Origin: a virus
Direction: 5' to 3' (one strand)
IMG/VR virus record: IMGVR_UViG_3300033999_000086
Coordinates: 1 to 48,890 of that record
Length of the DNA stretch: 48,890 nucleotides
Position 1 is the first letter of the stretch. Each line of letters opens with the position of its first letter. Below, piece by piece: positions 1 through 48,890 of the stretch. Under the pieces are notes generated by a model. It searched no databases. It saw nothing but the letters and a program-made list of their open reading frames with translations, and was not told the DNA's origin. A program made the position numbers and the translations under genes.

Positions 1-126
1 AATACATCTTCAAAGCTTTATTAACTACAGCACTTAAACTTATGTCTTTTTCTTTTGCTTCATTGAATATTTTCTCTCTCATGCTTTTAGTAATTACAAT
101 CGTTAATCGGTTATCTTGTTTTTCAA
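1..126. repeat. 187-bp perfect direct repeat, copy 1 (right part)
   Basis: This is the continuation, across the circular join, of the block that begins at 48765. Positions 1-126 match 7915-8040 base for base. Beyond 126 the two copies diverge, although they still encode related protein ends. Confidence 0.9.
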
Positions 127-172
127 TAAGTGGACCTATTTTATACCCATCAGGAATTTCTATCGTTCTCAT
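1..172 (-). CDS. ribbon-helix-helix DNA-binding protein, copy 1 (split by contig ends)
   Basis: The gene starts at ATG 172-170, with GGAGGTG eight bases upstream, and runs off the left edge. Its last codons are at 48812-48890, so on the circle it is a complete 61-residue protein. It has a basic N-terminal strand (RLTIVITKSMR) followed by two helices (REKIFNEAKEKD and LSAVVNKALKMYF), the pattern of Arc/CopG ribbon-helix-helix repressors. The C-terminal two thirds is identical in DNA to the copy at 7901-8086, while the N-terminal residues differ (IEIPDGYKIGPLIEK here). A small autoregulating repressor is the likeliest role; this is inferred from the fold. A predicted plus-strand small RNA converges on its 3' end. 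Confidence 0.75.
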   Translation of the reverse strand, partial: MRTIEIPDGYKIGPLIEKQDNRLTIVITKSMREKIFNEAKEKDISLSAVVNKALKMY

Positions 173-228
173 TATTTCACCTCCTCAGGTATCATAACAC
201 ACTTTTATAGAAAAAAGCAAGTGTAAAA

Positions 229-681
229 TTAATTATTCTCATCATCTTCACGTTTTGAAGCGTCGACTTTGTCAATAATGATTTTAATTTCGTTGTTTCC
301 TTCTTCTTTGCCTTCTTCATAGATCTTTGAATATTCGTTTATAAGTGCTTCGTATATTTGTAATTTTAACTCAATTAGCTTGTCTGTTCTAACATCTGAA
401 TAATCACGCTTTTTTAACTCTTCTTCTATTTCTTTCAACTGCGTGCCTAAAAGCTTTATCCTTCCTTGTTTCATCACACTGTATTGTTCAAAAAGCTTCT
501 CAAATTGTATTTTTTCAAGTTCACCAATTTCATTTGAAAGTTCTTTATTCCAATTAACAAGTGTTTTAATTGCAACTTTTAATCGCCGTGCTATTTTTGT
601 ATAGCTGTATCCTTTAGCCCGTAGTAATATAAACTGTTCTTTTAATTCATTTTTGCCACCTTCTTTTTCTATTTCATTCAA
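229..681 (-). CDS. TerS-like / helix-turn-helix protein
   Basis: A 150-residue protein read from TTG at 681, chosen because AAGGAG lies about eight bases upstream; the GTG at 690 abuts the ribosome site. Residues about 15-50 form a helix-turn-helix (GYSYTKIARRLKVAIKTLVNW), followed by long charged helices. The acidic C-terminus carries a hydrophobic strand (IKIIIDKVDAS). The phage small terminase at 38393-38791 has the same layout: an N-terminal HTH, helices, then FKVVVEYVDKEK. The sequences are not otherwise alike. It lies downstream of integrase and excisionase, where many phage satellites carry a terS. I infer a small-terminase-like packaging adaptor. A plain HTH regulator is the main alternative. 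Confidence 0.5.
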   Translation of the reverse strand: MNEIEKEGGKNELKEQFILLRAKGYSYTKIARRLKVAIKTLVNWNKELSNEIGELEKIQFEKLFEQYSVMKQGRIKLLGTQLKEIEEELKKRDYSDVRTDKLIELKLQIYEALINEYSKIYEEGKEEGNNEIKIIIDKVDASKREDDENN

Positions 682-702
682 TCTATTCACTCCTTTTTGT
701 CT

Positions 703-850
703 TTATGTCTGTAATTGCGATTATTTGCCTTTTTTTACATTATTCAAGCCCTGTGTGAAAGTTATGCCTGCTAAACAATTGACTATATGCTTCTTCTATT
801 TATTCAATTCATATTGTTCAAGTATTAACTACTTTCTTATGTCTGTAATT
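703..850. repeat. 14-bp direct repeat pair in the intergenic region next to integrase/excisionase
   Basis: TTATGTCTGTAATT occurs at 703-716 and 837-850, 134 bp apart, in the gap between the TerS-like gene and the excisionase-like gene. No protein gene is visible in 691-872. The repeats could be arm-type sites for integrase or excisionase, or part of an attachment region. Nothing in the sequence proves either. Confidence 0.4.
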
Positions 851-872
851 CGTGCTTTATTGCCATAGAATA

Positions 873-1064
873 TTATTCTTCTTTTTTACTGTCTTCTTTT
901 AAGAATTCTATTAAGCTGTCTTCTGAAACATAATATTTCACACCAAGCTTTTTAGCTTTTAACTTGCCTTGTTTTATCCACTCCCTTAAACTTACTACAC
1001 TTATGCCTAACTTTTCTGACAATTCTTGTAAATCATACATTTTTATACTTTCTAAGTTAATCAT
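873..1064 (-). CDS. excisionase-like MerR/HTH_17 DNA-binding protein
   Basis: A 63-residue protein with AAGGAGGT seven bases before its ATG. Residues 10-57 fit the small winged-helix excisionase fold: a first helix (LQELSEKLGI), a recognition helix (VVSLREWIKQGKL), then the K(A)KKLGVKYYVSEDSLIEFL wing and closing helix. It starts 18 bp after the integrase stop and is presumably co-transcribed with it. The expected role is control of excision directionality. A general HTH regulator cannot be excluded. The phage-side gene at 11422-11658 is a related fold. Confidence 0.65.
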   Translation of the reverse strand: MINLESIKMYDLQELSEKLGISVVSLREWIKQGKLKAKKLGVKYYVSEDSLIEFLKEDSKKEE

Positions 1065-1082
1065 ACTACTACCTCCTTAAAA

Positions 1083-2018
1083 TTAAAAATCTATGTAGTT
1101 CTCAGCACCTGCTTTAATGCGTTCCAAGTTATGAAAGTAAATCATCGTTGTTTTAATGTCTCCATGCCTTGCCATCGCTTGGGCTTGCTGTATAGAAGCC
1201 CCACCCACTATTGACAACGTTATTGCTGTATGCCTCAAACTATGGGCTGTTATGCGTGAATTGTTTATACCTGCTTTTATAAAAACGTTTTTTATTATTC
1301 TTGAAATGCTTCGTGTAGTCAATGCTTCACCTTTATTTTTATTACTTAATGAAATAAATAACGGTTCACTGTCTTTTAACTGCCTGCCAGCTTCTTTTTC
1401 ACGTTCCTGAAGATAGTCTTCAATCGGCTGTAAAGTCTTTTCGTTCAATACTACAAAGTCGTCTTTTTCGTCTCTCCCCTTTCCTTGTATCCAAAGAACG
1501 GCTTGCCCTGCTTCTTGTCTTATATCCCCTATTGCCGCCCTTGCCACTTCTATTGTTCTTAAGCCCGTGCGTGCTAATAAATTGAATAAAGCATAATCAC
1601 GTTTCCCTTCTAATGTATCCGTGTTAATTACATCTAAAGATCTCCTCAATTGACTTTTGTTTAATACGTCTTTTCTGTACCCTTTTGGTTTCCTTGGACT
1701 TTTGACTTTTGCTATATTTGGGTATATCTTCATTGCTTCACTCCATTCAAAGAATTTCCTGACTGCTGTCAAATAACCTGCAACGGTCAACGATGTTTTA
1801 CCTGTATTAATTAAATATTCTCTGTAAGCTAAAATATCATCTCGATTTAAACTTTCCCCCATTCTGTTAGTATCTTTTAACCACTTGAAGAATTGTTTTA
1901 ATTGCCTGTTATACGTGCGTTTAGAAGCTTCCTTAACGTCCTGGGACTTTATAAATGCTTCAATAGCTTCTTTATCACTTGAAAAACGCTTGACTTCTAT
2001 CTCAGCCACTGCCTTCAT
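1083..2018 (-). CDS. tyrosine recombinase / integrase
   Basis: An integrase of the XerC/D and phage type, about 311 residues. Counting from an upstream GTG at 2027, residues 20-110 are a SAM-like core-binding domain (SKRTYNRQLKQFFKWL) and residues 120-314 the catalytic domain. The catalytic set is complete: R157 in ARTGLRTIE, K183 in QGKGRDEK, H262 and R265 in HSLRH, H288 in ARHGD and the nucleophile Y297. The start is uncertain. ATG 2018 directly abuts GGAGGAG, whereas GTG 2009 has better spacing. It has its own strong promoter (2114-2142) and a structured leader. It is the only integrase in the window and should catalyse site-specific integration and excision. Confidence 0.92.
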   Translation of the reverse strand: MKAVAEIEVKRFSSDKEAIEAFIKSQDVKEASKRTYNRQLKQFFKWLKDTNRMGESLNRDDILAYREYLINTGKTSLTVAGYLTAVRKFFEWSEAMKIYPNIAKVKSPRKPKGYRKDVLNKSQLRRSLDVINTDTLEGKRDYALFNLLARTGLRTIEVARAAIGDIRQEAGQAVLWIQGKGRDEKDDFVVLNEKTLQPIEDYLQEREKEAGRQLKDSEPLFISLSNKNKGEALTTRSISRIIKNVFIKAGINNSRITAHSLRHTAITLSIVGGASIQQAQAMARHGDIKTTMIYFHNLERIKAGAENYIDF

Positions 2019-2025
2019 CTCCTCC

Positions 2026-2053
2026 ACCGTTGGGGTATTTTTACCCCGACGGT
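2026..2053 (+). other. 12-bp-arm hairpin in the integrase leader
   Basis: ACCGTTGGGGTA and TACCCCGACGGT form a 12-bp stem with a TTTT loop just before the integrase start region. In plus-strand RNA the only imperfection is a U-G wobble, and ATTTTTC follows, so it resembles a plus-strand terminator. In minus-strand RNA the same position is an A-C mismatch, but the GGGGTA/TACCCC core still pairs. It may shield integrase from antisense transcription or affect its translation. Confidence 0.5.
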
Positions 2054-2113
2054 ATTTTTCTTATTTCCTTCCAGTTCCACAACTTTTTGCGTAACTGGCT
2101 TTTTCTTTATACT

Positions 2114-2142
2114 ATTATACTACTTACTTATAACTTTGTCAA
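2114..2142 (-). promoter_or_regulatory. integrase promoter
   Basis: On the minus strand TTGACA (2142-2137) is followed by a 17-base spacer and TATAAT (2119-2114), a perfect sigma-70/sigma-A consensus. Transcription would begin near 2107, leaving a leader of about 80-90 bases. The flanking ACTATTGACAAA matches the promoters at 12230 and 14332. Confidence 0.85.
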
Positions 2143-2205
2143 TAGTAAAATATAATTTCCATTAAAATTAATATACTATTTACTTGCAAGCTTTTAATAA
2201 AAAGA

Positions 2206-2234
2206 CGGTACACTTCATTTAAAGAAGCATACCG
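2206..2234 (-). terminator. terminator after the 2314-2874 gene
   Basis: In minus-strand RNA CGGUAUGCUUC pairs fully with GAAGUGUACCG, using two G-U pairs, and is followed by UCUUUUUAUU. In plus-strand RNA the two wobbles become A-C mismatches, so the minus strand is the functional one. It separates the upstream satellite operon from the integrase promoter. Confidence 0.75.
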
Positions 2235-2313
2235 CTTTTTATCCGTTGTGCAACTTTTTGCACCACCGACGTTTTAATTTCCAGTCCAGGAATTATTTCC
2301 TGATCTGGTAGTT

Positions 2314-2874
2314 TTATAAAAACTTCTGAATAACAAAGTTTAACAGTTCGTTTTTTGAAATCCCCAGTTCATTTGAAGCCTTATTTAATTTCTTTTCGCT
2401 TTCTTCTAACATTCTGAATGAATTTACTTTCTTTTCTGTGCTTCTGTACATTCTTCTAAATTCTATATCATTTCTAAAAAGTTCTTTTATATTTGCTTTT
2501 ACTTCTGTTTCACTTCGTTTGTTTTCTACTTCTACTTGCTTATTCATTTCACTTTGCAAGCTATTTGCTTCTGTTTTGCTTTCTTCTTCTTTATTTCCTT
2601 CCAATGCTTTTAATCTACTTTCTAACTGTGTAATTCTTTCACTTAGCTTTTCATATGCTTTCGTTTCAATTTCATAGCTTGACGCTTTTACATTGCTTTC
2701 TTTTGCTTCTTCTTGAATAGCTTTGTAATCCAAGCCAGTCACTTCGTTGAAATACCTTGAAATGTCGTGCCTTGTTAGTGGTAATAGCTCCCTCTCAATT
2801 CGTGACGGAGTATAACCTTGCTTCAAGTAACTAATAATCTCATCTTTGTATTTAACTACGTTATCCCTGCTCAT
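2314..2874 (-). CDS. HTH and coiled-coil protein of unknown function
   Basis: A 186-residue protein. Residues 5-45 look like a helix-turn-helix (YLKQGYTPSRIERELL, then TRHDISRYFNEV). Residues 65-130 are a highly charged coiled coil (ERITQLESRLKALEG). The C-terminus has a further helical segment (SNELGISKNELLNFVIQKF). I do not recognise a family. It is the last gene before a terminator and the integrase promoter in the satellite-like segment. That position and a DNA-binding N-terminus would suit a regulator or replication/partition accessory, but this is inference only. Confidence 0.6.
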   Translation of the reverse strand: MSRDNVVKYKDEIISYLKQGYTPSRIERELLPLTRHDISRYFNEVTGLDYKAIQEEAKESNVKASSYEIETKAYEKLSERITQLESRLKALEGNKEEESKTEANSLQSEMNKQVEVENKRSETEVKANIKELFRNDIEFRRMYRSTEKKVNSFRMLEESEKKLNKASNELGISKNELLNFVIQKFL

Positions 2875-3375
2875 TCACCTTACCCCCTTTTAATATCAAA
2901 CTAATATCATACTATCATAAAAAAAATAAAAAGTTATTCACTTGCTTTTTGAAAGCATAGTAATTACATTGTAATCTTATTTCTGAATGAATGCATATTT
3001 TAGCTTTTACCTCTTTGTATAAGCTTCCAGGACGTTCTTTATATGCCTTCCTGTGTAACTACCTTATTGACACTAAAAACTTTTAACCTGCTTTAGAATA
3101 CAAAGCCCTGGGAAGTTATTTCATGCCTTGGGAATAAAAAAAGACTGCCTAAAAATAGACAATCTTTTTAAAAAAATGAAAAACACGCTTTAGCGTTCAA
3201 AAAGTCCATAATTAAATAAGTTGTAAAGTAAATACTTGCAACCACCTCTTTGTATAAGCCCCTGTATGCGTTTCTTTTTTCTTTCACGGTAAATTATATT
3301 CAAGCCGTTTTTTCTTTTAACCTGTTTAGAAATGCAAGCTAATTTAAGCATATTTTTCACTATCTTCTATTTCTT
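2875..3375. other. 500-bp gene-poor region with decayed repeats
   Basis: I see no convincing gene here. ACCTCTTTGTATAAGC occurs at 3009-3024 and again at 3244-3259. CGTTCAAAAAGTCCAT at 3194-3209 is identical to 4680-4695, the start of the 4408-4695 gene, so a decayed copy of that gene start is present; here it opens only a 13-codon frame. The region also holds the terminator at 3143-3164. It looks like the residue of duplication and deletion. Confidence 0.5.
3143..3164 (-). terminator. terminator after the 3376-3747 gene
   Basis: Minus-strand RNA forms GAUUGUCUA / UAGGCAGUC with a UUUU loop. All nine pairs form, three of them as G-U wobbles. A-rich sequence lies upstream and UUUUUUU follows. 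It closes the small-gene operon that starts upstream of 4294. Confidence 0.7.
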
Positions 3376-3747
3376 TCAATTGTTTAAAATCAACAACGCC
3401 CTTTTTATTAGTTTAAGCCATTCATTGAAATCACAAGTATCATCCCATTTTTTGTTTTGACCCTCAAGCCATCTTCTATTATTTTTATATAATAAAAAAA
3501 GCTGTGTAATTGTCTGTTTCGTTTCTAAATCAAACGAATATAACGCCTTGCCTTCCTGTTTAAAAGCCTGCGTAAGTTCTTTATCGTGAAAAGCCCCGTC
3601 AAATTTTTCAATCCATTTATTATATTCACTTTCCTGTAATTGCTTCAAAACAGGCAAATTTAAATCAAGTAAAACATACGACTTATTAATATTACCAGCA
3701 AGCTTTTTAACTTCTTCAAGTTCTTTAATAAATTCTTTTACAGTCAT
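3376..3747 (-). CDS. hypothetical protein
   Basis: A 123-residue acidic, helix-rich protein. The start is the ATG at 3747, which follows a GGGGGG ribosome site at normal spacing; the frame stays open further upstream but without such a site. Visible segments are an N-terminal amphipathic helix (VKEFIKELEEVKKLAG) and a C-terminal WLKLIKRALLILN helix. There are no catalytic motifs or membrane segments and I recognise no family. It lies 46 bp after the 3794-4294 gene and before a terminator, so the two probably share a transcript. Confidence 0.6.
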   Translation of the reverse strand: MTVKEFIKELEEVKKLAGNINKSYVLLDLNLPVLKQLQESEYNKWIEKFDGAFHDKELTQAFKQEGKALYSFDLETKQTITQLFLLYKNNRRWLEGQNKKWDDTCDFNEWLKLIKRALLILNN

Positions 3748-3793
3748 TTTTTTACCCCCCTTTGTTTTGGTAATGCTATATAAGTTCAAGCTT

Positions 3794-4294
3794 TCAATTA
3801 TAAATTTCATAATCTTCTATTTCTTTTATTCTTTCATCTATGTAATCATCAAACCAGCTTGAATAAAAATCTATTTCGTTCTCAAAAACTACATCATCCA
3901 ACTTTTTAGAAATTTCTGACGGTAAGCTTTCAAGAAATTCATACTTGTCAAATTCTTCATGTTCTTTCTGAAATGCTTCTAATGCTTCCAAACCGCCTGG
4001 GATATATTTCAACATAATGCTAAGATCTTCTAAGTCTGTATTGTCTAAACTTTGCCCTTTTATAAAGTCCTGTGCGTTAAACCTGTGAATAGCTATCGCC
4101 CTGCCATTCCAAACATCGCCGTCCATGCTGTTTTCTGACGTATACGTTGCTATGCCAACTTTACCGTCCTGACTAAGAATAACCTCAGTAACGCCCATAT
4201 TCATTTCAAAAGCTTGCTTTAATGCTTCTTCTAACTTATCCAAAATTTCATCACGGTTCTTTTCAATTAATTTTATCCATTGCTTACTTTTCAT
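3794..4294 (-). CDS. 166-residue paralogue-family protein (satellite copy)
   Basis: A 166-residue protein that is clearly homologous along its length to the 166-residue product of 12607-13107. Shared stretches include QWIKLIEKNRDEIL, EEALKQAFE, VILSQDGKV, GDVWNGRAIAIHRFNA and VVFENEIDFYS. The start is supported by AAGGAGGT ten bases upstream. The N-terminal helix (W, then E-A-L-K-Q-A) recurs in the products of 13304-13657 and 13673-13987. The family is unknown to me, with a predicted helix, beta-hairpin and helix layout. Having one member in the satellite-like segment and three on the phage side suggests exchange between the two, or a shared target. Confidence 0.7.
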   Translation of the reverse strand: MKSKQWIKLIEKNRDEILDKLEEALKQAFEMNMGVTEVILSQDGKVGIATYTSENSMDGDVWNGRAIAIHRFNAQDFIKGQSLDNTDLEDLSIMLKYIPGGLEALEAFQKEHEEFDKYEFLESLPSEISKKLDDVVFENEIDFYSSWFDDYIDERIKEIEDYEIYN

Positions 4295-4407
4295 TTCTTT
4301 TTACCTCCTTATTTATTTATCAAACTATTTAACAAAAACAAGCCCCCACGTTAGAAAAGTCCGTATACAAAATTATGCAAATTATACAATTGTATATTAC
4401 TGCCATT

Positions 4408-4695
4408 TTATTCTTTTTCTTTTTCTTTGCCATTTGTTTCATTACAAGCATTACCATGCGTGGTATTAGTTGCAACTTCATTCTGTTTTACTATTTCCAG
4501 CCAGCTTTTGCCTTCCATTTCTTCACCCCCTTTTGAATACAACTTATAAAATTCTTTTTGTTTTTCGTTCATGTGTTTACCCCCTTTCGTTTGAAAGCCT
4601 TCTTTGTTTTCTTTTTCTTTAATATTTGTTTCATTAGAAGCATTATCATTATTGATATTATTTCCAGTTTTTTCTTTTTCGTTCAAAAAGTCCAT
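4408..4695 (-). CDS. low-complexity protein with nested in-frame starts
   Basis: A 95-codon frame starting ATGGACTTTTTGAACG. It is rich in N, E and K and contains an internal duplication: NASNETNIKEKEN is echoed by NACNETNGKEKEK. Two strong ribosome sites lie inside, AAAGGGGGTAAACAC before an in-frame ATG at about residue 42 and AAAAGGGGGTGAAGAA before one at about residue 60. It may therefore be read as three overlapping products, or be a fusion of three small genes. The function is unknown. A trace of its start lies at 3194-3209. Confidence 0.45.
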   Translation of the reverse strand: MDFLNEKEKTGNNINNDNASNETNIKEKENKEGFQTKGGKHMNEKQKEFYKLYSKGGEEMEGKSWLEIVKQNEVATNTTHGNACNETNGKEKEKE

Positions 4696-4769
4696 ATAAA
4701 AACATTTTCAAAAATAGCTTGCGTCTACACTGTCAACTTTTTTAAATTGACTTTATTGACTATTCTTTT

Positions 4770-5012
4770 TTAGCTAAACGGCTTGAATGGTAATTCACGC
4801 CTATAAATCTTCATTACCGTTTCCTTGTTTCCAACAAACTGCATTGCGTATAATTTACCGTCCCTTGTATAATACCGTGCCATCACTTTCAAGCCTTCAT
4901 TTATTGCCAGTTCTTTTATATTTGCGTTCGTTGTGTATAAAGCATAAGTATCTTTATCTAACTTCCAATAGTCTTTTTCTTCTTTATTCACAGCGTTTAT
5001 TGTTTTTACCAT
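4770..5012 (-). CDS. small hypothetical protein
   Basis: An 80-residue protein with AAGGGGAT nine bases before the ATG. It contains a central helix (ANIKELAINEGLKVMARYY) and a following beta-strand pair (GKLYAMQFVGNKETVMKIY). I recognise no family. It is the first gene on the distal side of the iteron origin, so a replication-associated role is possible but unproven. Confidence 0.55.
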   Translation of the reverse strand: MVKTINAVNKEEKDYWKLDKDTYALYTTNANIKELAINEGLKVMARYYTRDGKLYAMQFVGNKETVMKIYRRELPFKPFS

Positions 5013-5133
5013 ATTATTATCCCCTTTAGTTTTATTTTTATCATTTCCAAGAAAAAATTTCGTTGTTTATACCCGTCCATTTTTGATTAAATTTTTTTGA
5101 ATATTTATTTGCGTTCAACTTAAAAACCACTTC

Positions 5134-5542
5134 AAACATGCATGGTTATCGGACGCATCCAGGATATCCTGGATTGTATTTTTTATATCCACCATTGTCG
5201 TGTTTTGAAACATGCATGAATATTGATCGCATCCAGGATATCCACCATATCCACCTTTTTTATTATTAATTATATATATTTATTTTTTACCCCCACGCCC
5301 CTACATTTTCAATCAAAATAAGGTATATTTACTATAAATTTTTTCTACTACTTTTTAAAATAATCATGGATATCATGGATGCGTTTAGTATTAATGCGTA
5401 TTTGAAAGATCTTTTTTCAAAAAATAATCATGGATATCATGGATGCGTTTAGTATTAATCAATGTTTTAGGCATGCTAAATTTCCAATTTTTTAAAATAA
5501 TCATGGATATCATGGATGCGTTTAGTATTAATGCGTATTTGG
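5134..5542. repeat. iteron array, probable replication origin
   Basis: Three copies of a 39-bp repeat containing ATGGATATCATGGATGCG start at 5357, 5421 and 5494; the first and third extend into GCGTATTTG. Two units in the opposite sense (5134-5169 and 5208-5243) share AACATGCATG followed by CGCATCCAGGATATCC. The first of these lies within a perfect 18-bp palindrome, ATCCAGGATATCCTGGAT (5157-5174). The inverted sets flank a very AT-rich stretch (5256-5350) that could unwind. The array directly follows the primase-helicase gene. I infer a theta-type origin bound by an initiator, possibly the primase itself. The 5013-5133 part shows no gene. Confidence 0.75.
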
Positions 5543-5560
5543 TAAAATGCCATGAAATTG

Positions 5561-7615
5561 TTACTTATATTTAATCCCTATTACTGCTCTTAATAACTTT
5601 CCATCTGTCCCAACGGGTCTATAATCACGATAAGGTATATACTTAGGTAATTGTGTGAAAAACGCTTTTTGTGAAAGTGCTGGTATATTATTCTTTCTAC
5701 AATACTGTATAAAATAATTATAAAGATCTTGCTTGGATATCCAATCATCGGGGGACTCTTCTAAATGCTCCTCTTCAAAAGCATAAACGGGGTTGGACTT
5801 TCGTTTATACTTTTCTCTAATTTCTTTATCTTCTGTAAAGCCACCACGTTTTAAAACTCTTTTTAAGCCATCTAAAGCTAAATTTAAAAAGTAAGAAAGT
5901 GCTGTTTTGGTAGTCAACTTTTCAATAAGATGGGGGTCTCTTTTGTCTCCGTCAAATGTCTCTTCAAAGTCAATAATTTTCCATCTTCTAAAAAATGCGT
6001 TGGACTCGTCTTTAGCGTCGGGGACTGTATTCGTAGAAAAAATTAACTTAGCTATATTCATAAAAGAAAAAGGCTCCTGAAATTTCTTTTCACCTTTTAC
6101 AACGCCGCCCCCAGTTAACATTTTGAAACCTCCAGTGGTGGCTAACGCTTTGTTAGACAAGTCATCGGCTATATTTGCAAGCTTCCCAAAAAGTGACGCC
6201 CGTGAAAACTGTTTACTTTCAAGATCTTGCAACGTTTCTGTACTGTAGTTTCCATCGCCTATAAGTGTTTTCAAAAGATTTAAGAATGTCGTTTTGCCAT
6301 TACTGCCACCACCTACCAGCATGAAAGCTTTATTATACCTGTAATCGCTATATAGACAATAACCTGCTATCTCTTCTAAGTCTTTTCTTTTTGCTTCGTT
6401 ATAGCTTGTAATTTCATCTAAAAACTTGTCAACTGTTTCATCGTATGCCTCGGGGTTGTAGTCAACAGGTATTTTATAAGTAAAATAGACATCGGGGGTA
6501 AAGTCCATTAGTGTGAAAGTTTTTATATTAAAAAGCCCGTTGTTTAACGGTATCAACGACTTATTAGTATTAATTTCTTTTCTGTCAATGTAATTTCTGT
6601 CTTTTAAATGTTCTATAACTTCGTTCTTAACATGCGTAGAAGCTTTTTCAAGTAGTATGCTTTCAACTGCTTGCCTAATATACCCATCCCCTGGGTGGTA
6701 AATGCCGTCTTTATATACGTATATTTCTCTTGTATCTCTTGGGGTTATAAAATGCTTATTTTCAAGTTCTTTTAAGCATATACTTATTAGCCTTTCTGTC
6801 TTTGACAAGTCTTTATTTTCTTCTTGACTGCTTTTGTTTTCTTTATTCTTATTTGCAAGGGGGTTCTGTTTATAAAAAAAGCCGTACGGTTCAACGGGTC
6901 TGTAAGCACTTTCAACTATGTTCTCAACTTCTCTGTCATTCATAGGGGGGTTATTCTTTTTATTCCATTCTTTGACTAAACTTAAAGCCTCTTCTTTTGA
7001 AAGTCCCTGCTTCCTGTAAAACGTTGCTAACTTAATACCGCTGTCGTTTCTACTGCCTTCACTTACACCGTTTATAATCGTGTCTATGTCAATAGCGTTA
7101 TTTACAGTGTTTTCTGAAATTAACTTATAAATAAGATCTTGTATATTAGTTAATCTTTCATGGTTGGGTATAGTGTCACCTGTGAAAGTAAAATACCTTT
7201 TAGAAGAATAAATTTCTATACCTTTGTCAAGGTCTTTCAATGTGAAATTTCCAAGTGCATAACCTAATATATGCAAGCCTTCACCACTGGGGGATACCTC
7301 AGCATAACAGGGGTAAGTATTTAAAATTTCTTGAATTGCTGACTTAAGCTCTCCGTCAATAAAACAATCATCAAAGTCAATGCCTACAATTCCATTGCCT
7401 AAAACAAAGCCCAAGCCACTTATACCTTTCGTATTCAAATATTTTTTTGCTGTTTCAAGGTCCGTCCAGTTTTGACTTTCATTAATGCTAATGGGTCCAC
7501 CTCTTACCCAGGGGGCAACGGGTAACTTTTTGCCATCGTTATCACTCCAACATATCCATCTTTTTTGACTTGCAAGCTCGGGGGGTACTTTAATATCTCT
7601 TTCAAGTTCTTTCAT
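5561..7615 (-). CDS. P4-type primase-helicase (prim-pol, PriCT, D5 helicase)
   Basis: A 684-residue replication protein. Residues about 10-170 match a prim-pol-like domain, with GIDFDDC as the metal site and SPSGEGLHI. Residues about 180-240 fit a primase C-terminal helical domain (KLATFYRKQGLSKEEALSLVKEW). Residues about 270-680 are a D5/SF3 helicase with Walker A GGGSNGKTT (about 434-442), acidic ADD, sensor FSTNTVPD and RRWKIIDF. Such proteins combine priming and unwinding in satellites, plasmids and some phages. It sits beside the iteron array. Its codons favour CCC, GCC and GGG (for example near 5750 and 7510), unlike the structural genes, which suggests separate ancestry. AAGGAG precedes the ATG. 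Confidence 0.92.
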   Translation of the reverse strand: MKELERDIKVPPELASQKRWICWSDNDGKKLPVAPWVRGGPISINESQNWTDLETAKKYLNTKGISGLGFVLGNGIVGIDFDDCFIDGELKSAIQEILNTYPCYAEVSPSGEGLHILGYALGNFTLKDLDKGIEIYSSKRYFTFTGDTIPNHERLTNIQDLIYKLISENTVNNAIDIDTIINGVSEGSRNDSGIKLATFYRKQGLSKEEALSLVKEWNKKNNPPMNDREVENIVESAYRPVEPYGFFYKQNPLANKNKENKSSQEENKDLSKTERLISICLKELENKHFITPRDTREIYVYKDGIYHPGDGYIRQAVESILLEKASTHVKNEVIEHLKDRNYIDRKEINTNKSLIPLNNGLFNIKTFTLMDFTPDVYFTYKIPVDYNPEAYDETVDKFLDEITSYNEAKRKDLEEIAGYCLYSDYRYNKAFMLVGGGSNGKTTFLNLLKTLIGDGNYSTETLQDLESKQFSRASLFGKLANIADDLSNKALATTGGFKMLTGGGVVKGEKKFQEPFSFMNIAKLIFSTNTVPDAKDESNAFFRRWKIIDFEETFDGDKRDPHLIEKLTTKTALSYFLNLALDGLKRVLKRGGFTEDKEIREKYKRKSNPVYAFEEEHLEESPDDWISKQDLYNYFIQYCRKNNIPALSQKAFFTQLPKYIPYRDYRPVGTDGKLLRAVIGIKYK

Positions 7616-7653
7616 TTATATTCACTCCTTGTATTTTTTTAATCTTTTCAAAA

Positions 7654-7692
7654 TAAAAAAAGGCTGCAACTTTTTCAAGGCAGCCCTTTTTT
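7654..7692. terminator. bidirectional terminator upstream of the primase gene
   Basis: GGCTGC (7662-7667) pairs with GCAGCC (7680-7685), with A-rich and T-rich arms on both sides, giving a U-tract in either direction. On the minus strand it would stop the 9.8-7.9 kb operon before the primase gene. On the plus strand it lies upstream of the small-RNA promoter. Confidence 0.75.
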
Positions 7693-7757
7693 AATGCGTG
7701 TTCTATTTGTTTTTTATATGCTTTTATGCTATAATTTACTTAGAAAGAAACTTGACA

Positions 7758-7802
7758 ATACATATGTATAAACTTGACAAGCTAACATAAAAGCGTTATA
7801 AT
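7758..7802 (+). promoter_or_regulatory. small-RNA promoter with upstream palindrome (B)
   Basis: On the plus strand TTGACA (7774-7779), a 17-base spacer and TATAAT (7797-7802) form a perfect promoter. Just upstream is ATACATATGTAT (7758-7769), a perfect 12-bp palindrome between two copies of ACTTGACAA. This would suit a dimeric repressor such as the ribbon-helix-helix proteins. An additional TGCTATAAT extended -10 lies near 7727-7735. Confidence 0.8.
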
Positions 7803-7808
7803 AGAAAT

Positions 7809-7896
7809 ATAAAAGACTTATAAAACAAGTGAAATGTCTTTAAACTTTTTAGATGGAGTAAAGAAGGGCTCCCAACCAAACTTTACTCCATTTTTT
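7809..7896 (+). ncRNA. predicted small RNA B
   Basis: A transcript of about 88 nt would run from the consensus promoter at 7774-7802 to a strong terminator: TGGAGTAAAG (7854-7863) paired with CTTTACTCCA (7881-7890), then TTTTTT. No open reading frame of note lies inside. The terminator loop carries GGGCTCCC, and its CUCCC is complementary to GGGAG ribosome sites such as that of the 48467-48622 gene. A near-identical RNA is predicted at 48728-48808. It converges on the 3' end of the RHH gene at 7901. Confidence 0.6.
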
Positions 7897-8040
7897 ATTT
7901 TTATTTTTCATTAAAATACATCTTCAAAGCTTTATTAACTACAGCACTTAAACTTATGTCTTTTTCTTTTGCTTCATTGAATATTTTCTCTCTCATGCTT
8001 TTAGTAATTACAATCGTTAATCGGTTATCTTGTTTTTCAA
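7854..8040. repeat. 187-bp perfect direct repeat, copy 2
   Basis: This block equals 48765-48825 plus 1-126 across the circular join, without a mismatch. It covers the small-RNA terminator and most of the RHH gene. Upstream, 30 more bases (7821-7850 against 48732-48761) are also identical, then three bases differ. Recombination between the copies would split the circle into about 7,914 and 40,911 bp. Confidence 0.92.
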
Positions 8041-8086
8041 CAAACGGTCCTAACTTATAGCCATCGGGCACATGTATCGTTCTCAC
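7901..8086 (-). CDS. ribbon-helix-helix DNA-binding protein, copy 2
   Basis: A 61-residue Arc/CopG-type protein. I choose GTG 8086 as the start because GGGAGG sits eight bases upstream and the position matches the start of the copy at 1-172; the earlier in-frame GTG at 8095 overlaps the ribosome site. The N-terminus (IHVPDGYKLGPFVEK) differs from copy 1, and everything from KQDNRLTIVI onward is identical. Expected role: a dimeric repressor binding a short palindrome, perhaps ATACATATGTAT at 7758. It is the last gene of the 9.8-7.9 kb cluster before the terminator at 7654. Confidence 0.8.
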   Translation of the reverse strand: MRTIHVPDGYKLGPFVEKQDNRLTIVITKSMREKIFNEAKEKDISLSAVVNKALKMYFNEK

Positions 8087-8123
8087 TTTTGCCACCTCCC
8101 CTCTTTATATATTTTTTGTAAAT

Positions 8124-8558
8124 TTACTCCATTATCAAATACATTCCATATTCTCCAACGGAGAAATATACTTCTACAAGATAATTGTCAAGCCATACAA
8201 AATAAGGCTCGGCTGATCTTTTAAAAGTGGAAAAATATCTCATGTTCTCAAGCAAGCAATCAAGTAGATCGTCTTTGAACTGTCTTGAATATGGAAGTTT
8301 TTCAGTGTCTAAAAATTCGATGTAATCTTCTTTCGTTGTATCAAAGCTAAAAGTGAAACATATAGAGTCGGAGTCTTTCAAAATGCCAAGTTTTATATTT
8401 TGATTTTCTGTCAAGATTATCCAAATCGACTCTTCCAACTCTATATACTCAATATCGTTACTCTCCCAATAGTTCACCAACTCCATCTGCATTTCTTGAG
8501 AAGCAAAAATACTTGAAACTGCCAAAATTATCGTAAAAACAACTAAAAACTTTTTCAT
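8124..8558 (-). CDS. secreted hypothetical protein
   Basis: A 144-residue protein with a clear Sec signal peptide (MKKFLVVFTIILAVSSIFA, cleavage likely after ASIFA-like residues near 19-20). The mature part is acidic and rich in aromatic residues, with no cysteines suggesting a lipobox. I do not recognise a family. AAAGGAGGAG precedes the ATG, which overlaps the stop of the 8555-8722 gene. Secreted accessory proteins of temperate phages sometimes alter the host surface or block superinfection; nothing here proves that. Confidence 0.65.
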   Translation of the reverse strand: MKKFLVVFTIILAVSSIFASQEMQMELVNYWESNDIEYIELEESIWIILTENQNIKLGILKDSDSICFTFSFDTTKEDYIEFLDTEKLPYSRQFKDDLLDCLLENMRYFSTFKRSAEPYFVWLDNYLVEVYFSVGEYGMYLIME

Positions 8559-9673: not shown

Positions 9674-9835
9674 TCACTCCTTTTCTTTTTCTTCAGCATG
9701 GCTCATAAACCAGTCGTCAAGTGCTTCATGCAAAATTTCAGTCATAGTTACTTCACGTTTTGCTGCTTCAACTTTTAGTCGCCTATGCCATCGTTTTCCT
9801 ATGATTATAGTGGTGTACCAACGTTCTTTGCTCAT
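9674..9835 (-). CDS. ribbon-helix-helix-like small protein
   Basis: A 53-residue protein read from ATG 9835, with GAGGAGG about ten bases upstream. It has a strand (RWYTTIIIGKRWHRR), a helix (LKVEAAKRE) and a second helix (TMTEILHEALDDWFMSH), as in MetJ/Arc proteins. It is the first gene of the 9.8-7.9 kb operon, directly behind a divergent promoter region, the usual place for an autoregulator. It is more diverged from the 61-residue pair than from the 48467-48622 protein, with which it shares T-L/M-x-x-(L/I)-x-x-E-x-(I/L)-D-(E/D)-W. Confidence 0.75.
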   Translation of the reverse strand: MSKERWYTTIIIGKRWHRRLKVEAAKREVTMTEILHEALDDWFMSHAEEKEKE

Positions 9836-9869
9836 ACTTTTATGCCTCCTCATAAATTTTTATATATCT

Positions 9870-9950
9870 ATTATAACATATAATTTCATTATTATAGCAA
9901 GCTTTCCATTAAAAATTAGCTTGACTTTTTCGATAATAAAGTGCTATAAT
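9870..9950. promoter_or_regulatory. divergent promoter region C
   Basis: Plus strand: TTGACT (9921-9926), 18 bases, then TATAAT (9945-9950) with extended TGC. Minus strand: extended TGCTATAAT (-10 at 9896-9891) and a further TATAAT at 9875-9870. CAAGCT and AGCTTG near 9897-9923 form an inverted repeat between them and could be an operator. The plus promoter is closely related to that at 48693-48721, including TATAATATAAATG after the -35. Confidence 0.7.
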
Positions 9951-9956
9951 ATAAAT

Positions 9957-10040
9957 GCAGGTATGGACTCCTCATCCACTCCTCACCTCCTTTTTAGATA
10001 GATTTGATAAATAGAACAGGCCCAAAGCGGGCCTGTTTCT
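9957..10040 (+). ncRNA. predicted small RNA C, pyrimidine-rich
   Basis: A transcript of about 80 nt would run from the plus promoter at 9921-9950 to the hairpin at 10016-10036. It contains two ACTCCTC units followed by CACCTCCTTTTT, which together are complementary to ribosome-binding sites. CUCCUCAU matches AUGAGGAG in the leader of the adjacent 9674-9835 gene. On the minus strand the same bases could serve as a ribosome site for a 19-codon peptide (MRSPYLHLYYSTLL...), which is the alternative explanation. Confidence 0.4.
10016..10036. terminator. bidirectional terminator after recT
   Basis: ACAGGCCC pairs perfectly with GGGCCTGT around a five-base loop. The tails are TTCTATTT on the minus strand and TTCTACATT on the plus strand. 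It lies just after the RecT/Bet stop and probably ends that operon and, from the other side, small RNA C. Confidence 0.75.
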
Positions 10041-10043
10041 ACA

Positions 10044-10991
10044 TTAGTCATCAAATATTTCGTTAATCTCTTTTAATCTTTCTTCTATTGTATCGACATC
10101 ATCAGGCTTTCCCAATTCCTGAGATTCTTCAGGTTGTGCAGGTTCTTCTTCTATGAAATCAGCATCCGTGTACATACTTTCTTTAATTTTCTTTGCCTCC
10201 AAGCGGTCAACAGCGTTAATAGCTTGCTTTAACTGAGGCTCAGAAAATTGCTCTATGGACTTTCCGATTTTCTTTTCTAATGTTTTACGTATATTCTTCA
10301 AACCAAATCTTTCTTCAACTTCTTCTATTCGTTTTAATAAAGCCAGTAAAGTCATATTGTTTTTTGGAAGTTCTTTCTTTACAGACTGTTTTGTAGATTC
10401 TTCTGTCTTTTCTTCATATTCAACTTCAGTAGATACATAGTTTGTATCCATTTCGTCTTCCGTATATAATCCACCTGTATCAAAAGCTCTCCTTAAAGCT
10501 CCTGCTTCAGCAACTTTCTTAATCATTGTTATTCTTTTTTCGTCCCAAATATTTTTATATCCGGGAGGCATTTTTCTGTAATATTCTTTAAGTGAGACTG
10601 CATGCATTAGTGGCTTATTCCAATCTGTTCTATAAACATAACACACAGCACCTACAATCTCGTCTTGATTGCCAATCAAAGCTGTTTTCCCATCTTTTGT
10701 AATTACATACGTTTCCATTCCTCCAAACTTTCCACTTTCATGAGCTAAGTGTAACATTCCTGCATGGCTCACCATTATTGTAGCTGGCTCATTTGGACGC
10801 TTTTTATTCTTGATTAAAAAAATCTGGCGTTTAAACGGATCTAAATTATAACGTTTTGAAAGTTCCAAAAACAATCTAAACTCTTCTTGTGTAGCGTCTG
10901 GTGCAAACATTTTTTTTATAAATTCTGTATCTTCTTTCTTTTCTATTTCACTGTTTTTCTTAGTCTCCATCTCATTCTTTCCTGCCATCAT
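10044..10991 (-). CDS. RecT/Bet single-strand annealing recombinase
   Basis: A 315-residue protein of the Bet/RecT type. The conserved core covers residues about 30-200: TQEEFRLFLELSKRYNLDPF, then QIFLIKNK, TIMVSHAGMLHLA and GGMETYVI, ending in AEAGALRRAF. The C-terminal third is acidic and coiled. It anneals complementary single strands in phage recombination and replication, normally with an exonuclease and SSB. No exonuclease is recognisable nearby. The ATG overlaps the preceding gene (ATGA). It could mediate recombination at the 187-bp repeats. Confidence 0.88.
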   Translation of the reverse strand: MMAGKNEMETKKNSEIEKKEDTEFIKKMFAPDATQEEFRLFLELSKRYNLDPFKRQIFLIKNKKRPNEPATIMVSHAGMLHLAHESGKFGGMETYVITKDGKTALIGNQDEIVGAVCYVYRTDWNKPLMHAVSLKEYYRKMPPGYKNIWDEKRITMIKKVAEAGALRRAFDTGGLYTEDEMDTNYVSTEVEYEEKTEESTKQSVKKELPKNNMTLLALLKRIEEVEERFGLKNIRKTLEKKIGKSIEQFSEPQLKQAINAVDRLEAKKIKESMYTDADFIEEEPAQPEESQELGKPDDVDTIEERLKEINEIFDD

Positions 10992-21568: not shown

Positions 21569-21647
21569 AAATCTCCTTGCTTGTTGTACTTTCCACAATT
21601 TCGATTTTTAAGTCTACTGTTGTGGATTTCTCAATTTTTCTGTTTGA

Positions 21648-21792
21648 CCCAGAGGTCTGGGAAGAAAAAGGCGCAAAAACAAGTAAGGTGAGAGCCGATA
21701 TTCCGATTCGAATTAGACGGAGTATTATTCAGATTCAAAGTGAACAGTCCAGCTTGCAATCCATTATTCCAATTCGTGCTCGAATGAGCGAC
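21648..21792 (-). ncRNA. DGR template repeat (TR) and spacer hairpin
   Basis: TR occupies 21681-21792 and is read on the minus strand. It aligns without gaps to the variable repeat 21873-21984. Of 112 positions, 23 differ and all 23 are A in TR; the other 82 non-A positions are identical. Nine AAT codons make it adenine-rich at the diversified codons. Homology ends at both sides shown (TR TAA against AGG upstream; GTTTTT against CTTATA downstream). In the spacer toward the reverse transcriptase, CCCAGA and TCTGGG (21661-21648) form a perfect hairpin. The transcript of this region would be the template RNA. Confidence 0.96.
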
Positions 21793-48692: not shown

Positions 48693-48721
48693 TTGACTTT
48701 TGCATTATTTTGTGCTATAAT
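48693..48721 (+). promoter_or_regulatory. small-RNA promoter (A)
   Basis: Plus-strand TTGACT (48693-48698), 17 bases, TATAAT (48716-48721) with extended TGC. The -10 and following TATAAATG match the plus promoter at 9921-9950. Confidence 0.8.
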
Positions 48722-48727
48722 ATAAAT

Positions 48728-48808
48728 GTAGTAAAACAAGTGAAATGTCTTTAAACTTTTTGAATGGAGTAAAGAAGGGCTCCCAACCAAACTTTACTCC
48801 ATTTTTTA
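48728..48808 (+). ncRNA. predicted small RNA A
   Basis: A transcript of about 80 nt from the promoter at 48693-48721 to a perfect ten-base hairpin terminator (48765-48774 with 48792-48801, then TTTTTT). From 48732 it is nearly identical to small RNA B (7821 on): 30 identical bases, three substitutions (GAA against AGA region), then identity through the terminator. It converges on the 3' end of the RHH gene that crosses the contig join. Confidence 0.6.
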
Positions 48809-48890
48809 TTTTTATTTTTCATTAAAATACATCTTCAAAGCTTTATTAACTACAGCACTTAAACTTATGTCTTTTTCTTTTGCTTCATTG
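48765..48890. repeat. 187-bp perfect direct repeat, copy 1 (left part) and 65-base terminal redundancy
   Basis: 48765-48825 matches 7854-7914. The last 65 bases (48826-48890) equal positions 1-65 exactly, so the repeat continues at the window start when the contig is closed. The 65-base redundancy is the kind left by a circular assembly. Confidence 0.9.
48812..48890 (-). CDS. ribbon-helix-helix protein, copy 1 (C-terminal part)
   Basis: The stop codon lies at 48814-48812, and the frame continues to the right edge, encoding the end of the protein whose start is at 172. The last 65 bases duplicate positions 1-65, so only 48812-48825 add new sequence. Same product as described for 1-172. Confidence 0.75.
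   Translation of the reverse strand, partial: NEAKEKDISLSAVVNKALKMYFNEK

Follow-up and report, generated by a model that had tools for sequence, protein, structure and literature searches.

Two near-identical modules, each consisting of a predicted small RNA unit on the plus strand facing the 3′ end of a ribbon-helix-helix (RHH) gene, are present in IMG/VR virus record IMGVR_UViG_3300033999_000086, the whole of which (48,890 nt) was analysed and is referred to here as the window. Copy 1 probably controls the replication of a small PrimPol replicon resembling a plasmid or satellite, working by attenuation through its small RNA (sRNA1), and copy 2 could act on it in trans. The best reading of the sequence would be a plasmid copy-control system of altered make-up, common to a phage and to an element that is either fused to the phage or was co-assembled with it.

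Control of copy number by antisense RNA has been studied in depth in a few plasmid families of Gram-positive bacteria. If the proposed reading is correct, its logic would extend to the PrimPol/P4 replicon type of many satellites and archaeal plasmids, and the second copy, on the phage side, would offer a concrete test of whether a phage governs the replication of a parasite via the parasite's own incompatibility RNA.

Predicted small RNA units of the plus strand

The predicted small RNA units and the repeat that they share are as follows.

7774–7802, plus strand: promoter P1 of sRNA1 (TTGACA-17-TATAAT, 12/12)
7809–7897, plus strand: sRNA1, predicted countertranscript RNA of ~89 nt, with an A/U-rich 5′ part followed by a terminator hairpin
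48693–48721, plus strand: promoter P2 of sRNA2 (TTGACT-17-TATAAT, 11/12, TG before the −10 box)
48728–48808, plus strand: sRNA2, predicted RNA of ~80 nt with body and loop as in sRNA1, from promoter, terminator and repeat
7821–8040, unstranded: near-identical repeat (2 mismatches), sRNA body plus the C-terminal two thirds of the RHH gene; exact over 188 nt (7853–8040)

Both terminators (approximately 7853–7896 and 48763–48808) have a perfect stem of 11–12 bp, a 17 nt loop and a T-run, and the loop of sRNA1 contains AAGGGCUCCC. No other perfect hairpin on the plus strand has a stem of 10 bp or more followed by T5, and 60 dinucleotide shuffles of the window yielded such hairpins at a mean of 0.017 per shuffle. 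The combination of a promoter (at least 11/12) and a terminator of this kind was produced by none of the 60 dinucleotide-preserving shuffles. Predicted folding energies are −22.0 kcal/mol for sRNA1 (z −4.45 against shuffled sequence) and −18.3 kcal/mol for sRNA2 (z −2.39), and the two bodies are 97.8% identical over 89 nt. The original prediction of short plus-strand RNAs with consensus promoters and strong terminators, two of them nearly identical, is well supported by these values. Its further statement, that each RNA runs head-on into the 3′ end of an RHH gene, is correct for both copies, with the qualification that copy 2 is interrupted by the record ends. A frame of 26 codons within the sRNA extends across the T-run of the terminator, with only 2 base differences between the copies.

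In low-threshold Rfam searches, ctRNA_pT181 (RF00242) gave the top bit score at both sRNA loci, on the same strand and over the full model length: 27.8 bits at 7809–7905 (gathering threshold 56; E 0.12 in 511 nt, 0.029 in 126 nt) and 28.6 bits at 48720–48816 (gathering threshold 56; E 0.021). The family was absent from the whole-window search at E ≤ 10, and in the 511 nt search lower E-values were obtained for Thr_leader, on the leader terminator described below (0.01), and for GcvB (0.042). These scores support a resemblance to ctRNA_pT181, rather than membership of the family. Elsewhere in the window, an Rfam RT-17 RNA was indicated at 21577–21662 (minus strand) at a sub-threshold score (34.3 bits against a gathering threshold of 40.4; E 0.007 window-wide).

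The two units are not the only plus-strand candidates. A third well-formed unit (9921–10040, plus strand) lies between another RHH gene (9674–9853) and recT (10044–10991), and consists of a promoter (9921–9950, TTGACT-18-TATAAT), the block CUCACCUCCUUUU and then a hairpin. It is retained among the related viruses, which were taken as five of the six loci from a DnaB search of viral_contigs (whole records G001–G005; L009, at 27% identity, was left out), four of the five conserving the DNA of this unit at 86–94%. The block resembles the 3′ end of 16S rRNA. Two readings are possible: a small RNA of anti-Shine-Dalgarno type, or a minus-strand Shine-Dalgarno sequence and start codon of which the block is the reverse complement. 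One further contig (L058), found by the anti-Shine-Dalgarno pattern, was rejected as a chance match to an ordinary Shine-Dalgarno sequence and start codon.

RHH genes

The RHH genes and a candidate operator map as follows.

7901–8086, minus strand: RHH gene copy 1, CopG/ORF56-like; 61 aa from GTG 8086, 64 aa from GTG 8095
48812–48890, minus strand: RHH gene copy 2, 3′ part, truncated at the end of the contig
1–172, minus strand: RHH gene copy 2, 5′ part, truncated at the start of the contig
7748–7780, unstranded: candidate operator, with AAACTTGACAA as a direct repeat (7748, 7770) around the palindrome ATACATATGTAT

When its parts are joined, copy 2 specifies 61 aa and has the same residue as copy 1 at 55 of the 60 codons after the start. 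Ten codons differ (five of them synonymously), all within the N-terminal third, and the predicted strand (residues 25–28) and both helices are identical. The protein matches the NCBIfam ORF56 plasmid copy control family at E 7.8e-5, below the cut-off, and among PDB sequences its weak matches are led by CopG (E 0.05), then ORF56 (E 0.22). A structural model (pLDDT 71.6) has the predicted beta-alpha-alpha fold, and a Foldseek search with it placed CopG first (E 0.22, probability 0.91) and ORF56 seventh, at E-values that are weak. Weak Pfam matches are to CcdA and CopG_antitoxin. The RHH and Rfam signals are each weak alone, yet they agree. A sequence of 10 bp, TTTACTCCAT, occurs at 7881–7890, in the sRNA terminator, and at 8123–8132 (plus strand), at the end of gene 8124–8558; this direct repeat brackets the RHH gene and is a possible trace of the arrival of the module.

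A plasmid- or satellite-like segment between the copies

The DNA between the two copies carries the following features.

1–7914, unstranded: plasmid/satellite-like segment between the copies, missing from the closest relative
5561–7615, minus strand: PrimPol/P4-family primase-helicase, predicted replication protein (profile and PDB matches)
5352–5541, unstranded: three 53 nt iteron-like repeats, each containing ATCATGGATATCATGGATGCG, just past the primase stop; candidate origin
1083–2027, minus strand: XerC/D-like tyrosine recombinase of the element
873–1064, minus strand: excisionase-like HTH protein of the element

The primase-helicase scores 202.9 bits against TIGR01613 (cut-off 108.7), has a P4-family C-terminal domain and a PriCT_1 domain, and matches PDB entries 6a9w/7rr3 at its N-terminus and 7ola at its C-terminus. 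Integrase, excisionase and primase-rep genes are all present in the segment, as in PICIs and phage satellites. An HTH protein (229–690) was considered as a possible TerS, but this identity found no support, the protein having no TerS family match (model pLDDT 59.7). A search for a tRNA gene as integration site found none. The leader of the tyrosine recombinase gene contains a 12 bp hairpin (2026–2053), ~60 nt downstream of a 12/12 promoter (2142–2114), which is possibly a second attenuator-like leader.

Between 8287 and 47930, most of the window is matched in collinear order by the closest relative (G001, 40,950 nt), which lacks the stretch from ~47,930 through the ends to ~8,287, having only some 500 nt there instead. 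Just one of the nine element proteins (3794–4294) has relatives in the phage part or in the five related records; it and the phage gene 12607–13116 (minus strand) are paralogues with 58% protein identity. The 7.9 kb segment looks like a small replicon of the plasmid or satellite kind, in line with the earlier suggestion of a role in copy number. The description of the module as mobile holds only insofar as the nearest relatives lack the segment.

Relatives of the module were sought more widely. Comparison of 7650–8130 with the five related records gave matches in two, both trivial (~30 nt). No relative of the RHH protein was confirmed in viral_contigs or genome_contigs, a 20-mer of the sRNA was absent from viral_contigs, and the RHH gene was found in none of four MAGs. 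The proposed search for the RNA-RHH pair in other phages and plasmids likewise returned no matches to the module DNA. Primase and integrase searches of viral_contigs found none. Primase relatives were present in 2 of 103 genomes from the phylum of a Mesoaciditoga MAG (E ≤ 1e-20) and in 3 of 398 from that of a Bacillota MAG (E ≤ 1e-60), and the five distant primase loci had no clear RHH gene directly upstream. Terminase relatives were found on a Bacillota MAG contig (85%) and in unclassified, Thermotogae and Mesoaciditoga MAGs (56%), and a portal search was positive in 5/103 and 0/4.

The primase leader

The order of features at copy 1 is RHH gene, antisense RNA, leader terminator, primase-helicase and iteron-like repeats. 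This corresponds to plasmid copy control placed before a primase-helicase, and agrees with the earlier view of the module as a functional unit of RNA plus repressor that may control copy number. Two features lie between the RHH and primase genes.

7616–7900, minus strand: leader of 285 nt from RHH stop to primase start, holding the full antisense target of sRNA1
7655–7695, minus strand: intrinsic terminator in the primase leader (−19.2 kcal/mol, z −3.62)

Since sRNA1 lies inside the leader on the opposite strand, the leader RNA contains its perfect complement. The terminator follows the antisense target, 40 nt short of the primase start. Its 5′ arm, AAGGGCUGCC (7688–7679), equals the sRNA loop sequence at 9 of 10 nt, and the pattern AAGGGCTSCC, with at most one mismatch, is found in the window only at the two sRNA loops and at this arm. 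The arm thus mimics the sRNA loop, so that the leader loop recognised by the sRNA would also be able to pair with the arm. Pairing of this leader loop (GGGAGCCCUU) with the arm is predicted at −18.3 kcal/mol. Controls attained this value in 7 of 1000 cases for shuffled leaders, in 11 of 976 for random segments of the window, in 3 of 984 for random 20-mers and in 30 of 1000 for shuffled arms.

A probable course of events is that the RHH protein (CopG/ORF56-like) represses an operon of its own gene and the downstream primase-helicase, while sRNA1, expressed from a promoter inside the leader, is transcribed against the operon as a countertranscript RNA. The hairpin loop of sRNA1 would pair with the loop complementary to it in the newly made leader. 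In the absence of sRNA, the leader loop would pair with the 5′ arm of the terminator and hinder termination; when sRNA is bound, the arm would be free, the terminator would form, primase would not be made and replication would be held down. Antisense-driven attenuation at the leader terminator is likely on this evidence, and more likely than other modes of copy control. In pseudoknot-free folding, the antiterminator costs 3.7–5.8 kcal/mol as long as the 3′ arm has yet to be transcribed and ~11–13 kcal/mol thereafter, and the terminator has a probability above 0.999 with the antisense region either blocked or free; attenuation would therefore need a loop–arm pseudoknot or kinetic control. A 9/12 promoter-like match (7678–7650), of a quality found at chance density, overlaps the leader terminator and could bypass it.

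The second copy

P2 has no clear homology to P1 beyond the −10 box, and resembles the promoter at 9921 (82% over 40 nt), which four of the five relatives conserve. The predicted transcription start precedes the repeat by a few bases, so that the same RNA body stands under two different promoters. Copy 2 would thus provide the same RNA and repressor from the phage side of the join, under a phage-type promoter. The next gene on the minus strand encodes an RHH-like protein of 51 residues and has its own promoter. Directly beside copy 2 there is neither a terminator or attenuator nor a rep gene, and sRNA2 could therefore act only in trans. Predicted pairing with the copy 1 leader is −122.9 kcal/mol for sRNA2, whose complement there is near-perfect, against −145.1 kcal/mol for sRNA1. 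If expressed, sRNA2 and its RHH protein could repress the element in trans, acting on its leader and operators like an incompatibility determinant. Satellite–helper cross-talk, which had been suggested in the original prediction, is plausible because the sRNA loop and the predicted DNA-binding segment of the RHH protein are common to both.

One step further would be that the phage has captured the copy-control unit (countertranscript and RHH gene) of a plasmid or satellite that shares its host, and uses it under its own promoter to shut down replication of the competitor in trans. This is doubtful; if true, the unit would serve as an incompatibility weapon carried by the phage, or, where phage and element are fused, as a built-in governor.

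Another promoter-like sequence in the phage part (46551–46580, plus strand, TTGACT-18-TATAAT) lies inside, and antisense to, dnaB. A −35/−10 pair of like form occurs in the dnaB of G001, with the same spacer, and of G002, G003 and G004, with a different spacer.

Ends of the record and alternative explanations

The last 127 nt of the record are those of 7853–7979 and the first 126 nt those of 7915–8040, so that 127 and 126 nt of the exact 188 nt repeat sit at the contig ends; the terminal repeat (1–65 = 48826–48890) is 65 nt, or 127 + 126 − 188. No 127-mer of the window is repeated apart from the one at 7853/48764. Terminal repeats of 127 nt are also found at the ends of two relatives, which points to an assembler with k = 127. 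Given these overlaps with the 188 nt repeat, the contig ends are assembly breaks (k = 127) inside the repeat and not natural termini, and the 65 nt terminal repeat accordingly does not independently prove that the genome is a complete circle. The record interrupts copy 2, and we infer that its parts join across the record ends. The module has two different upstream and two different downstream flanks and must therefore exist in two versions; the pairing of upstream with downstream flanks in the cell would be, as assembled, a candidate arrangement. The record may instead represent two circles that share the repeat, a 40.9 kb phage and a 7.9 kb plasmid or satellite, in which case the presence of both copies in one molecule would be due to the assembly or to free and fused forms occurring together. 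The two-circle reading is a serious possibility, falling somewhat short of an even chance, and it is compatible with the copy-control reading. It would account for contig ends that lie 127 and 126 nt inside a 188 nt repeat node with a sole repeated 127-mer, and it fits the size of G001, which has a 127 nt terminal repeat and is without the 7.9 kb segment. However, the assembler crossed from element through repeat to phage at 7821–8040, a step for which read-pair support would normally be needed, the GC content is alike on both sides (0.323 and 0.320), and the element bears the paralogue of a phage gene mentioned above.

With regard to the mode of action, the countertranscript could act as in pMV158 or pSK41, blocking primase translation or leading to RNase-dependent decay, with the leader terminator constitutive and merely lowering expression. 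The formation of the terminator in both states in pseudoknot-free folding is consistent with this, and a single hairpin with an A/U-rich 5′ part is also how pMV158 RNAII appears in the available text of PMC4485353. It is nonetheless rather unlikely, as the antisense target is ~200 nt upstream of the primase start and far from the ribosome site, a strong terminator stands between the two, and the terminator arm mimics the sRNA loop. Attenuation remains the preferred reading, and two proposals that dispense with copy control altogether have much lower probability. The original prediction had raised immunity, and a small structured RNA beside a repressor in a phage, with a P4-family primase downstream, does recall a P4/P1-c4-like immunity RNA, or a trans-acting sRNA directed at phage or host mRNAs. 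Either is very unlikely: Rfam gave no c4, P4/P1-type or other immunity-RNA match, and the sRNA is antisense to the operon. The P4 CI RNA derives from the operon leader itself. The sRNA has no significant target among the 71 translation start regions in the window, its best interaction being no better than that of shuffled RNA (83 of 100 for the whole RNA, 33 of 100 for the loop and 48 of 100 for the sRNA2 5′ tail). There is equally little to be expected of the idea that the RHH protein acts as an antitoxin-like orphan regulator, next to a plus-strand unit that would be no more than a convergent terminator at a gene boundary with a fortuitous promoter. RHH families do include antitoxins, among them those of the weak Pfam matches, but no toxin family match was obtained in the scanned neighbours of either copy, and −35/−10 promoters occur at both copies despite differing upstream DNA.

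Comparison with known systems

In the literature covered (titles and abstracts, with few subscription papers), there was no RHH and countertranscript unit on a PrimPol replicon, nor phage capture of such a unit. Elements that live within a phage or at its expense have precedents, as far as the accessible text of the sources goes, in the helper-embedded PICIs, satellites with their own replication (PMC10111431), and in the plasmid–phage pair pMP1/MPV1, a case of plasmid piracy (PMC11921389). In the present case, by contrast, what is shared is the copy-control unit, and the element yielded no TerS. The asRNA1/Slr7037 locus of pSYSA has a small-protein gene and a cis antisense RNA just before the primase-helicase Rep (PMC9978351, accessible part). 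It differs from copy 1 in that the antisense RNA covers coding sequence, within a model of RNase E and priming (PMC9978351), and the small protein is given no RHH description in the accessible part of that paper.

The plasmid pRN1 has an RHH repressor before its primase-helicase and an essential structure after it (PMC4234260, accessible part). Copy 1 is like ORF56/ORF904 in having a predicted RHH copy-control gene directly before a P4-family primase-helicase, and in a downstream element, which in pRN1 is essential according to that text. Unlike copy 1, pRN1 is archaeal, and ORF56 and ORF904 overlap in the annotation, leaving no leader room for an antisense RNA; the word 'antisense' does not occur in three papers on pRN1.

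In pIP501, according to the accessible part of PMC4981023, CopR is accompanied by RNAIII, which attenuates repR in its leader, and oriR is downstream of repR. The RNAI of pT181 has a length of 87 nt, and staphylococcal plasmids of the pIP501 type are classed with the PriCT_1 plasmids (PMC5703833, accessible part). As these partial accounts describe them, pIP501 and pT181 share with copy 1 a countertranscript (predicted here) in the rep leader and an intrinsic terminator between antisense target and rep gene, and pIP501 also shares an initiator with PriCT_1 and an origin (here a candidate) downstream of rep. Copy 1 differs in that its predicted repressor is RHH and not of the HTH type described for CopR, its antiterminator is disfavoured by simple folding, and its match to Rfam ctRNA_pT181 is sub-threshold.

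In pMV158, RNAII is countertranscribed in the copG–repB intergenic region and has an A-U rich 5′ tail followed by a terminator hairpin (PMC4485353, accessible part). The differences are that the target here is a PrimPol-helicase and not an HUH rolling-circle RepB, the sRNA is ~89 nt compared to the 48 nt given in that text, a leader terminator lies in between, and the similarity of the RHH protein to CopG is weak. Like the CopG/RNAII system as presented there, copy 1 has a predicted RHH gene, a predicted intergenic countertranscript directed towards it and then a replication gene, and its predicted countertranscript would likewise sit in the cop–rep gap with its own promoter and terminator and an A/U-rich 5′ part.
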